Of a stretch of DNA of 64,000 nucleotides, positions 2,273 through 64,000 are shown one piece after another (position 1 is the first letter of the stretch; each line of letters begins with the position of its first letter). The DNA comes from Bacteroidota bacterium. GTDB taxonomy: Bacteria > Bacteroidota > Bacteroidia > UKL13-3. The stretch is taken from NCBI GenBank assembly GCA_027487835.1, contig JAIYCU010000003.1, positions 1 to 64,000 of the forward strand. Direction: 5' to 3'. A program made the position numbers and the translations under genes. Below the pieces are notes generated by a model. It saw only the letters and a program-made list of their open reading frames with translations, did no database searches and was not told the origin of the DNA.

Positions 2273-4477
2273 TTAATTGATAATTGCTATTGCTTTTTCA
2301 ATCAATTCGTCTTTTCCCTCAATTATGCCTCGAATGGTAGGTTTAAGTTCAATATCGGGTACAATTCCAATTCTTTGGGTTTCTTTTCCATCGGGATAGT
2401 AAACACCTATGCCACTAATCGCGGTTTTTAATCCGCCTGGTAATGAAATTTGGGATATATTGCCGTCGGCACCTGCCGTGGTTGACCCAATCACCACCGC
2501 GTTGGGGTGCACACGATAGGCCATGGTATGAAATTCCGCAGAACTTTGTGAAATTTCATTAATCAATATCACCACTTTCCCTTTATAGTATTTTTTGTTT
2601 TTCTTACCGACATTTAATGGGTTAGTATAAGTGAATAATCCAGGACTCTCCATACTACCATTGGTGAATTTAACAAATGGGGTACTTTTGGGCATTAAAT
2701 AATTACTCAAATCATAGAGCGGAAAATCAGAAGGATAATTTCTAATATCGATAATGACCCCTTTTGTATGTTCAATTTTCTTCCATAATTCAGGGAGGTA
2801 CGCTGTTTTCAAGGAGCTATTATTGAGGTAGGCGATATCCTTTGCCACAAGTTTAAAACAAGTATCAGTAGCCATATATTTACGATACAGTTTAAAATCT
2901 TTTCCTGAATAGGTATTTATTATTTTACTTTCTATTTTGTTGTCTCTTATGAATTCAATACTGAGGATAGAGTCATTCGTTCTAAACAAACTAGTGGCAA
3001 TGTCTCGTAATTTGGTGGGGTAATTAGAAGCAGGAAACAATTCTAATCTATCCTTTATTATTTCCTCCACAGGCTTATTGTTAATGGTCGAAATGACATC
3101 TCCGATTATTAAGCCAGTTTCCTTACCCAATAGTTCATCATAAAAACCAGTGACCACTGCTTTTCCTTCTACAAAAGTTAATTCAACGGGCGCATAGCTA
3201 ATTCCAAAATGATTGTTTAAGGCTTGGTTATCACCCCAAATATTGGCGTGGGTATCGTTAATCCAACCAATTAACTTTAAAGCAGTAAGTGAATATTCTG
3301 TCTCATCTTTTGCCTCTATAAATTTGGGAATAAACGCTTCCAATACATTTTTCCAATCTTCCTCAATTAAGTTTTTGTAAGGGAAGTAATATTGAATCAT
3401 GTTCCAATATCTGAATAATGACAAAAGGCGAAATCCCACATCAGGGTACTTCATGGTGGTATACGATTTTTCGTTTCTAAACTCAGGATTGCCAACACCA
3501 GGGAAAAAATCGATATAGTAATGTTCTTTTAGTCTTTTGGCCTCTTTTACTTTTAAAAGCAAGGCCTTAAGTTCTTCTGAAAAATTGGCCTTATTAATCC
3601 ATAGAAGATCGGGTTCAAACTTTAGCTCTGAAGCATTAATTGCAGTGGGTTTACCTGGCGAAAACTCGCCCAAACTCAGGATCCATTTTGCCAAAATAGC
3701 ATCTCGGCTTGTTGTATTTTCGGCTTGTAGTACCTTAGGGAGTATTCTAAAGAGTTCATAATCCCAGTTGTAGTTTCCACTGGCAATATTGGGATGATGG
3801 TACTTTAGGAAGCCCCAAATTAAGCCTAGGTATTTTAAGTTTTCAATTTGGGTTTTATCTACCGCCGCAAGGGTGATGCCCGACCCATTATTAAACACTG
3901 TATCTTTTTCGGCAGGATAGATTTTTCTTTCTAGCGTTTTTAGCTCTTTAATGTCTTTTCCATCAATAGAAACACTAAAATCATCTATCCACATTTTACC
4001 CTTTCCAACCAATAATCCACCAATAACAATTTGTTTTGTTTTTGCGGGGTTCATCTCAAGCGTAATCTCGTATTTTGTCCAATCGGTGCTTCCTTTTACG
4101 CCATTATTATTCATATTATCAAAGGCAATAGAAGGGTCGATGCGCATCCAAAGACCTGCATATCCATCGGTCACATTTTCAGTTTTAATATACCCTGTGA
4201 GGGTTATTTTCTTACCAGCGTAATTGTTTGGAAGCGTAAAGGCCCAAGCTTTAAAGTTTGAACCACCTTCTTTAAATGCTATGCTTGCGGCGTATTTTCC
4301 ACTTTTTGTACTTATTGAGTCGAGGGCAACCTCATAATTTTCAGCCCCAAAGACATTCCAATCCTTCGGCTTCCCATTGTCGGTAAGTTCAAAGTTTAGG
4401 TTAAATTTATCATCCGTCTGACAAAAAGTAGATAGTGCGCTTACTAAAATTAAAAAGGTTAAAATTATTTTTTTCAT
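2273..4477 (-). CDS. S41 family (C-terminal processing/tricorn-like) peptidase with N-terminal carbohydrate-binding-like domain
   Basis: A 734-residue exported protein with signal peptide MKKIILTFLILVSALSTFCQ. Residues of about 25-175 resemble a jelly-roll, CBM-like domain (GYAGLWMRID, KMWIDDFSV). A central helical region and a PDZ-like stretch (GLIIGDVISTINNKPVEEI) follow. The C-terminal S41 core contains GVIIDIRNYPSDFP and VVILINEISQSSAEFHTMAY, in which the second serine of QSSAEF is the expected nucleophile, then GSTTAGADGN and a PDGKETQRIGIVPDIEL tail typical of the family. It probably acts as a periplasmic or surface protease. Its substrate is unknown. The gene stands alone, with a 94-bp gap to the propeller gene. 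Confidence 0.88.
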   Translation of the reverse strand: MKKIILTFLILVSALSTFCQTDDKFNLNFELTDNGKPKDWNVFGAENYEVALDSISTKSGKYAASIAFKEGGSNFKAWAFTLPNNYAGKKITLTGYIKTENVTDGYAGLWMRIDPSIAFDNMNNNGVKGSTDWTKYEITLEMNPAKTKQIVIGGLLVGKGKMWIDDFSVSIDGKDIKELKTLERKIYPAEKDTVFNNGSGITLAAVDKTQIENLKYLGLIWGFLKYHHPNIASGNYNWDYELFRILPKVLQAENTTSRDAILAKWILSLGEFSPGKPTAINASELKFEPDLLWINKANFSEELKALLLKVKEAKRLKEHYYIDFFPGVGNPEFRNEKSYTTMKYPDVGFRLLSLFRYWNMIQYYFPYKNLIEEDWKNVLEAFIPKFIEAKDETEYSLTALKLIGWINDTHANIWGDNQALNNHFGISYAPVELTFVEGKAVVTGFYDELLGKETGLIIGDVISTINNKPVEEIIKDRLELFPASNYPTKLRDIATSLFRTNDSILSIEFIRDNKIESKIINTYSGKDFKLYRKYMATDTCFKLVAKDIAYLNNSSLKTAYLPELWKKIEHTKGVIIDIRNYPSDFPLYDLSNYLMPKSTPFVKFTNGSMESPGLFTYTNPLNVGKKNKKYYKGKVVILINEISQSSAEFHTMAYRVHPNAVVIGSTTAGADGNISQISLPGGLKTAISGIGVYYPDGKETQRIGIVPDIELKPTIRGIIEGKDELIEKAIAIIN

Positions 4478-4679
4478 GATTGTCTGTTATTTAAATCGGT
4501 TTTTATCCATTCATAATATCTTCACTAACTTCCCTTCTAAACAAATATACCCAAACTAACAAACTAAAGAATAACCATTAAAAGGTGTTTTAAAAATAAT
4601 TGGATTGGCCTAATAGAAAAGCTAAGCCTCGAAAATAAAGCGCTTATGTCAGTTGCCTAGGTTTGACAACTTTTGTAAA

Positions 4680-5060
4680 TTACCTAGTTCGGGTCAGCTT
4701 AAAACTTGGTTTTAATTGCAACTATAACCAGTTCTGTTTTGGGGTGAACTTAGTTGTGTTTTGAGGTGAACTCAGTTGTGTTTGATATTAAACTAGTTCA
4801 ATTTACAACTATTCCCAGTTCGGTTCGGAGCTAAACCTAGTTATGTTTAAAACTATTCTTAATGCTGTTCATAACTAAACCAAATTAGGTTTTGTTTAAA
4901 CTTAGTTCTATTAAATACTAAAACCAGTTCTACATGCAACCATACCCAGTTCAGATTAAAGATAAAACTAGTTAGGGTTTAAACTAAACCGAGTTCTCTG
5001 CATAAATAAACCACTTGGATTCATAAGTGAACCCAGCTCTGTTTGAAACTAAACATGCCT
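4680..5060. repeat. Phased degenerate 22-bp tandem repeat array, about 17 units
   Basis: The 680-bp gap between the S41 protease and rnhA holds no gene. Most of it is a degenerate repeat with core AACCnAGTTcTGTTT. The AGTT (or variant) core begins at 4686, 4708, 4730, 4752, 4774, 4795, 4817, 4839, about 4861, 4883, 4904, 4926, 4948, 4970, 4992, about 5014 and about 5035, so the spacing is 22 bp with a few 21-bp steps. Only the core is conserved; the rest of each unit drifts but stays AT-rich. The same unit with the same period recurs at 63850-64000. Two helical turns per unit suggest a protein-binding or DNA-bending array. That function is inference. Confidence 0.8.
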
Positions 5061-5160: not shown

Positions 5161-5622
5161 ATGAAGATAGTTATTTACACCGACGGCTCTAGCAGAGGAA
5201 ACCCAGGACCGGGAGGCTTTGGATTGGTGATGCAAAGCGGTAAGCACCACAAAGAAATGAGTGGCGGTTTTAGGTTAACTACCAATAACCGCATGGAGTT
5301 ATTGGCTGTTATCATTGCCTTAGAAACCCTAAAAATACCCAATTCTGAAGTGCATGTGTATACCGATAGCAAATATGTTTGCGAAGCGGTTGAAAAAAAA
5401 TGGGTATTTGGCTGGGCTAAAAAAGGCTTTGCAGGCAAAAAGAACCCAGATTTATGGCAGCGGTTTTTGAAAATATATCCGCAGCACCAAATACAGTTTC
5501 ATTGGGTAAAAGGCCATGCAGGCAATCCCTTAAATGAGCGATGCGACCAACTGGCAACGGCTGCCGCCGATAGCAAGAACCTAGACGTCGACCATTATTT
5601 TGAAGCAAATCAATCGAGTTAA
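5161..5622 (+). CDS. rnhA: Ribonuclease HI
   Basis: This enzyme hydrolyses the RNA strand of RNA-DNA hybrids, for example replication primers and R-loops, in the cytoplasm. The 153-residue length is normal for bacterial type I enzymes. All catalytic positions are visible: Asp8 in IYTDGSSRGNPGPGG, Glu46 in NNRMELLAV, Asp69 in VYTDSKYV, His119 in WVKGHAGN and Asp129 in ERCDQLA. A near-consensus -7 box (TATACTTG, 5143-5150) lies 10 bases before the ATG. The gene follows directly after the 22-bp repeat array, so the array forms its upstream region. Confidence 0.96.
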   Translation: MKIVIYTDGSSRGNPGPGGFGLVMQSGKHHKEMSGGFRLTTNNRMELLAVIIALETLKIPNSEVHVYTDSKYVCEAVEKKWVFGWAKKGFAGKKNPDLWQRFLKIYPQHQIQFHWVKGHAGNPLNERCDQLATAAADSKNLDVDHYFEANQSS

Positions 5623-63849: not shown

Positions 63850-64000
63850 ATACCAAGCTTTTTAGCTACTCATGTCCCGCCTTATTAGGGAAAGGACCCC
63901 ATTGCAATAAGCACCGAGGCACAATTGTGTCAACACTTATACCTAGTTATGTAATCATATACACCCAGCTGTATACTCACATCTACCAAGTTATGTATTC
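63850..64000. repeat. Second phased 22-bp repeat array, continuing past the window end
   Basis: Cores at about 63856 (ACCAAGCTT), 63901 (CCCCATTG), 63923 (ACAATTGTGT), 63945 (ACCTAGTTATGT), 63967 (ACCCAGCTGTA) and 63989 (ACCAAGTTATGT) keep a 22-bp register; the position expected near 63879 is poorly preserved. The core matches the array at 4680-5060. It lies upstream of the ACP operon, and the number of units beyond base 64000 is unknown. Confidence 0.75.

Follow-up and report, generated by a model that had tools for sequence, protein, structure and literature searches.

Repeat arrays in the window

The window analysed here comprises positions 1–64,000 of contig C4, which ends at 64,570, in a Bacteroidota genome assembled to 3.38 Mb in 46 contigs (G000). 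It contains two tandem arrays with a period of about 22 bp (Table 1). Array 1 lies upstream of rnhA; array 2 begins at the right-hand edge, beside an acyl carrier protein (ACP) gene, and is followed by a tRNA-Asn gene. For array 1 the self-match is 0.50 at a lag of 22, a value that none of 1000 shuffles attained. Array 2 is also real: it has 17 units spaced 21–22 bp apart (mean 21.5) and its self-match is 0.45 at lag 22 for the full array and 0.84 at lag 44 for the part within the window, with neither value reached in 1000 shuffles. The original prediction placed the start of this array at 63,850, but positions 63,850–63,937 are flank and leader and the repeat itself starts at about 63,938. 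As had been proposed, it runs past the end of the window.

Table 1. Positions of the features discussed (C4 coordinates unless another contig is given).
Feature	Position	Strand	Remarks
F1 array 1	4679..5049	+	17 units; upstream of rnhA
rnhA (RNase HI)	5161..5622	+	Conserved neighbour of array 1
ACP gene, 78 aa	63511..63747	-	Nearest gene to the left of array 2
Leader of array 2	63874..63937	+	Without repeat units; no counterpart at the orthologous G007 site (compared by eye)
F1 array 2, part in window	63938..64000	+	Remainder outside the window, to C4:64304
F1 arrays in G000	C4:4.7k; C4:63.9k; C3:22.1k; C3:102.6k; C27:116.1k; C20:11.1k (weaker); C25:8.1k (weaker)		

Distribution of the F1 family

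The two arrays agree in core and period, as originally predicted, and also in strand: profiles built from each alone match best in the same orientation (p = 0.0006 by 5000 column permutations). On the basis of pattern, covariance-model and chain searches, with G000 covered by these searches and by sampled stretches, we assign both arrays to a family, F1, with the consensus TAAACCYAGTTATGTnnnnAnn and about seven arrays in this genome. The proposal of a genome-level element family is thus borne out, and the converse, that only two loci exist with no similarity unit by unit, is contradicted by the further arrays on C3, C27, C20 and C25 and by the agreement of the profiles. The F1 arrays give chain scores of 68–274 bits, whereas the same stretches score at most ~18 bits when reversed or shuffled. 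The least certain member is C25:8.1k, which scores equally on both strands.

Among 18 genomes of the same genus, F1 arrays were found only in G007, a pond MAG (JAIYAT01) of a sister species, which has three: one on C33, one on C25 and one at rnhA that is split over two contigs. A profile scan of 64 genomes of the order gave no other F1-bearing genome, although decayed arrays may have escaped it, as the model searches have a lower sensitivity than the chain scorer, whose use was confined to fetched stretches. In G002 there is one isolated match with no array around it. A phage or plasmid origin of the arrays was rejected: no viral contig holds the F1 pattern, a set of 72,556 plasmids gave zero matches to the F1 array and the comparison with phage gave only two weak matches of 82 bp. 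Searches of the open-access literature turned up no account of these arrays.

Core and spacer

The F1 unit (array-weighted consensus TAAACCTAGTTATGTTTTAAAC) contains a 15 bp core, TAWACYYAGTTATGT, that is conserved between arrays. Core positions match between arrays at 0.33–0.96 (mean about 0.6), whereas spacer positions 18, 19, 21 and 22 match at 0.26, which is the background level; registering the units by their core somewhat favours this contrast, but a homologous spacer would still have appeared. Within arrays the spacer is partly alike (0.36–0.47 at positions 17–19 and 21–22). A core that remains alike beside a spacer at background would be expected if the core is constrained, or if arrays are founded repeatedly from it. 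When the arrays upstream of rnhA in G000 and G007 are aligned, agreement is 71% at core positions and 55% at spacer positions. The mean unit spacing is 21.3–21.9 in every F1 array, and the arrays contain decayed units and higher-order doublets of 43–44 bp.

Dyad symmetry of the core is marginal, with p about 0.04–0.05 at half-widths of 6–8 and 0.2 at 5, and a dyad operator was not accepted on these values. Single core sites outside arrays are not enriched (at 12 bits, 53 compared with 107 for the reversed control); this lack of excess led us to reject scattered single binding sites and speaks against a single operator in wide use. Folding of six-unit pieces was better than that of shuffled sequences in some cases (z = −2.75 and −2.90) and not in others (z = −0.45 and −0.23).

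Genomic context and turnover between species

The neighbours of the F1 arrays are unrelated to one another: rnhA and a peptidase, ACP and tRNA-Asn, a giant secreted protein and a sigma factor, alaS and a lipoprotein, and two convergent pairs. Nor is the orientation of the arrays relative to genes fixed; those at C27:116.1k and C20:11.1k lie between convergent genes and others are antisense or downstream. The arrays had been described as occupying gene-free DNA near gene starts. They are gene-free, but a link to gene starts is not general.

Among the G000 sites looked up in G007, only that at rnhA is kept; none of the other six has an F1 array beside the corresponding neighbours there. The rnhA site of G009 and of G017 is without an F1 array. 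At the orthologous site of array 2 in G007, compared by eye, the left flank (CTTCATTTATGCCAAGC...CACTCAT) and the right flank (GAATGACCTACGTAATATTTATC) are separated by ~95 bp of other DNA, with no F1 array between them upstream of the ACP gene. As both flanks are present and the array is absent, the extra segment of G000 extends from about 63,874 to 64,351 and consists of the leader, the array and a 47 bp tail resembling an IS end. The ~95 bp of other DNA in G007 blurs the exact joints in a check for target-site duplication, and the difference may reflect either a gain in G000 or a loss in G007. The location assigned to array 2, upstream of ACP, is correct to the extent that the ACP gene is the nearest on the left, its start being about 190 bp away, but the array is absent from the ACP site in the sister species and a role in ACP regulation is not supported.

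Similar turnover is seen elsewhere. DedA and rsmI adjoin in G000, while in G007 an array and a lipoprotein gene lie between them. For the genes on the far side of array 1, C27:116.1k and C25:8.1k, neither G007 nor G009 has a close counterpart, and several F1 arrays are flanked on one side by species-specific genes. Conservation of position between close species, a trait expected of parS-like or operator-cluster arrays, was seen for F1 only at rnhA among the sites looked up. The idea that the arrays mark chromosomal domains is not supported; gain and loss of arrays between close species argues against it, and G000 consists of 46 unordered contigs.

Other 22-bp families and IS256-type ends

The genus has at least three further families of intergenic 22-bp arrays that are unrelated to F1 in sequence, and profile comparison gave no link between F1 and these families. 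Upstream of the same sigma-factor gene there is an F1 array in G000 and an array of the unrelated family F3 (AAGCTACTACCCAAATGGTGGG) in G007. Another 22-bp unit in G000 is CGCTCCATGTTGAAGCATGCAG, and arrays of GTACCCCCTTGGTTTAACATGG occur in G000 and also in G007 and G009. In stretches chosen blind to arrays (400 kb each of G007 and G009, and 864 kb of G000 with the window among them) we counted ~10 non-coding arrays with a period of 21–22, or double that, and ~4 with another period; these numbers are small, the coding calls are rough and one or two of the ten arrays are weak. No arrays of period 21–22 were present in 200 kb each of G004 and G078. We note two related lipoprotein genes in G007 (~46% identical), each downstream of a 22-bp array, one of F1 (C25; L088:9783-10421) and one of F3 (C32; L221:4441-5103). 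In G000 a 14/35-bp array of GTCCATGGTCGATAG-like units at C27:79.1k (L206:19151-19534) adjoins a 22-bp array at C27:78.2k, and two more arrays, of 21/42-bp period, unrelated in unit and apparently intergenic, are found at C20:47.5k (L186:7552-7853) and C46:55.4k (L177:15422-15655).

Many of the 22-bp arrays lie close to ends of one insertion-sequence type. The IS-end pattern TTTACACACTTNNTGRGA, with one mismatch allowed, has 20 matches in G000, G007 and G009 together and none in the reversed control. By our count these IS256-type ends represent 16 distinct sites. Twelve of them, including that of array 2, have a 22-bp array, belonging to one of three families, no more than 400 bp away. This closeness is far beyond chance when set against the estimated ~1% of the sampled DNA taken by arrays and their surroundings, the copies not being independent of one another. 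A complete element in G017, with left end GGTAGCGTCTCATTAAGTGTGTAAAC, right end GACACCATCCCAAAAAGTGTGTAAATT and a 398-residue transposase, is one that we take, from its sequence and general knowledge, to be a member of the IS256 family. G009 has one fragment matching PF00872, and an intact IS256-type transposase was not found in G000. The arrays are situated outside the IS tips; array 2 ends ~10 bp before its IRR-like end, and the only other F1 array to abut an IS256-type end is that on C25 of G007 (IRL-like). No array lies near the IS copies of G017 and G001, so the IS is not always accompanied by one.

Comparison with known repeats

Having several intergenic copies and no transposase, F1 shares one trait of MITEs. 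We rejected its assignment as a MITE with inverted repeats, as it has no terminal inverted repeats and no shared leader or tail: in nine F1 arrays the longest exact inverted match between flanks was 7–8 bases, as in shuffles, and all-against-all blastn of the flanks gave only four matches of 13–28 bp at E = 0.023. With these features missing, no transposition unit is evident for F1. The closest parallel in the literature considered here is BrickBuilt of Porphyromonas gingivalis, a minisatellite-MITE with a 23-nt tandem unit and a leader and tail bearing terminal inverted repeats (PMC4596501). Like F1 it belongs to the Bacteroidota, has a unit of about two helical turns without spacers between units, occurs in many intergenic copies and is species-restricted; its ends resemble those of resident insertion sequences (PMC4596501), while of the F1 arrays two abut an IS-like end. 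The two differ in unit sequence and length, and the IS ends near the present arrays are of IS256 type, with the arrays outside the IS tip. Because F1 lacks the inverted repeats and the leader and tail, we do not file it under BrickBuilt. The TAACTGA heptamer direct repeats are likewise intergenic tandem arrays, some of them in Bacteroidota, but their unit is 7 nt long and of other sequence, and in the best-studied genome most of them lie immediately before start codons (PMC4679880). Identity with F1 was rejected on the difference in unit.

Interpretation

In our view, the 22-bp arrays look more like bacterial satellite DNA than like a gene switch. With somewhat better than even confidence, we regard the F1 arrays as a form of satellite DNA in bacteria: dispersed intergenic minisatellites of this genus that are lineage-specific and have a constrained core. 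This reading draws on the arrays themselves, their period, the contrast between core and spacer, their dispersal, the differences in site between species and the proximity of IS256-type ends to many of the 22-bp arrays. Units of 21–22 bp, or two helical turns, would be multiplied in place through strand slippage during copying or through unequal recombination, and the 43–44 bp doublets would arise by the same route. Gain and loss of arrays would take place at variable intergenic positions that also see turnover of genes and IS256-type elements, and the IS elements may play a role in dispersal. Since the core is kept between arrays while the spacer drifts, it is probable that the arrays have been acted on by a protein reading the core, be it a DNA-binding protein of the host or a transposase. 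Against the satellite reading, the conservation of the core and the shared rnhA array exceed neutral decay and could reflect a cellular function; the missing transposition unit, the small number of F1 arrays that abut an IS end and the failure to find an intact IS256-type transposase in G000 also count against it.

That cellular function might be the one originally suggested, in which the arrays are platforms for a single protein. A sequence-specific host protein (nucleoid, partition or regulatory) loaded at sites two turns apart along the same helix face could spread or form loops. The conserved core, which fits protein recognition, speaks for this reading, as do the uniform spacing, the presence of the rnhA array in two species and the weak dyad. 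We retain this as the chief rival, though a doubtful one: the two close species differ in their repertoire of sites, neighbours and orientation vary, lone cores are fewer than in the control, other 22-bp families with unrelated units share the genome and no candidate protein was found. Plain slippage minisatellites, without function or recognition and with a common core through shared ancestry only, would explain the decayed units, the higher-order duplications and the differences between species. Neutral decay should, however, wear core and spacer equally, and most of the spacer is at background while the core is not, which makes this explanation unlikely.

Two further explanations seem to us very improbable. 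If the arrays acted as RNA, they would be transcribed as chains of small hairpins, as the better-folding pieces might suggest, but other pieces do not fold better than shuffles and the strand relative to genes varies. If they were iterons of integrated plasmids or of a replication origin, they would resemble the 22-bp repeats TAAACCTAGTTTTAT observed in Acinetobacter (L092, L096, L102, L106, L107, L111 and L121), which are probably plasmid iterons and which in A. gerneri (L107) adjoin a Rep_3 initiator gene. These Acinetobacter hits, with their similar core, were selected by the search pattern, and a large collection holding many 22-bp arrays would be expected to yield some resemblance. Iterons are few, near-identical copies next to the initiator gene, whereas G000 has about seven dispersed arrays and no Rep_3 gene (PF01051 match), and the plasmids were without a match.

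It is conceivable, if rather unlikely, that unrelated families share the two-turn period, each with its own constrained core, because repeats are amplified or selected according to their spacing by a single agent, which would be either an IS256-type transposase or a DNA-bridging protein of the host. Such an agent would make these arrays a bacterial counterpart of eukaryotic satellites with a protein-binding box. One bacterial genus has several unrelated intergenic satellite families of a single repeat length, which vary between close species and are linked to the ends of one type of insertion sequence. This makes testable the origin of bacterial minisatellites, the reason why 21–22 bp is favoured and whether proteins hold the cores.

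Arrays of 21–22 bp with different units were also seen in other Bacteroidota, found with a search pattern that favours such hits: L093 (Parabacteroides An277; 813-1161), L095 (Prevotellaceae; 4193-4525), L098 (3400-3534) and L099 (661-808). In a Tannerellaceae Kf353 MAG the same short array occurs on many contigs (L094, L101, L103, L104, L116, L117, L119 and L120), several of them with a similar left flank.
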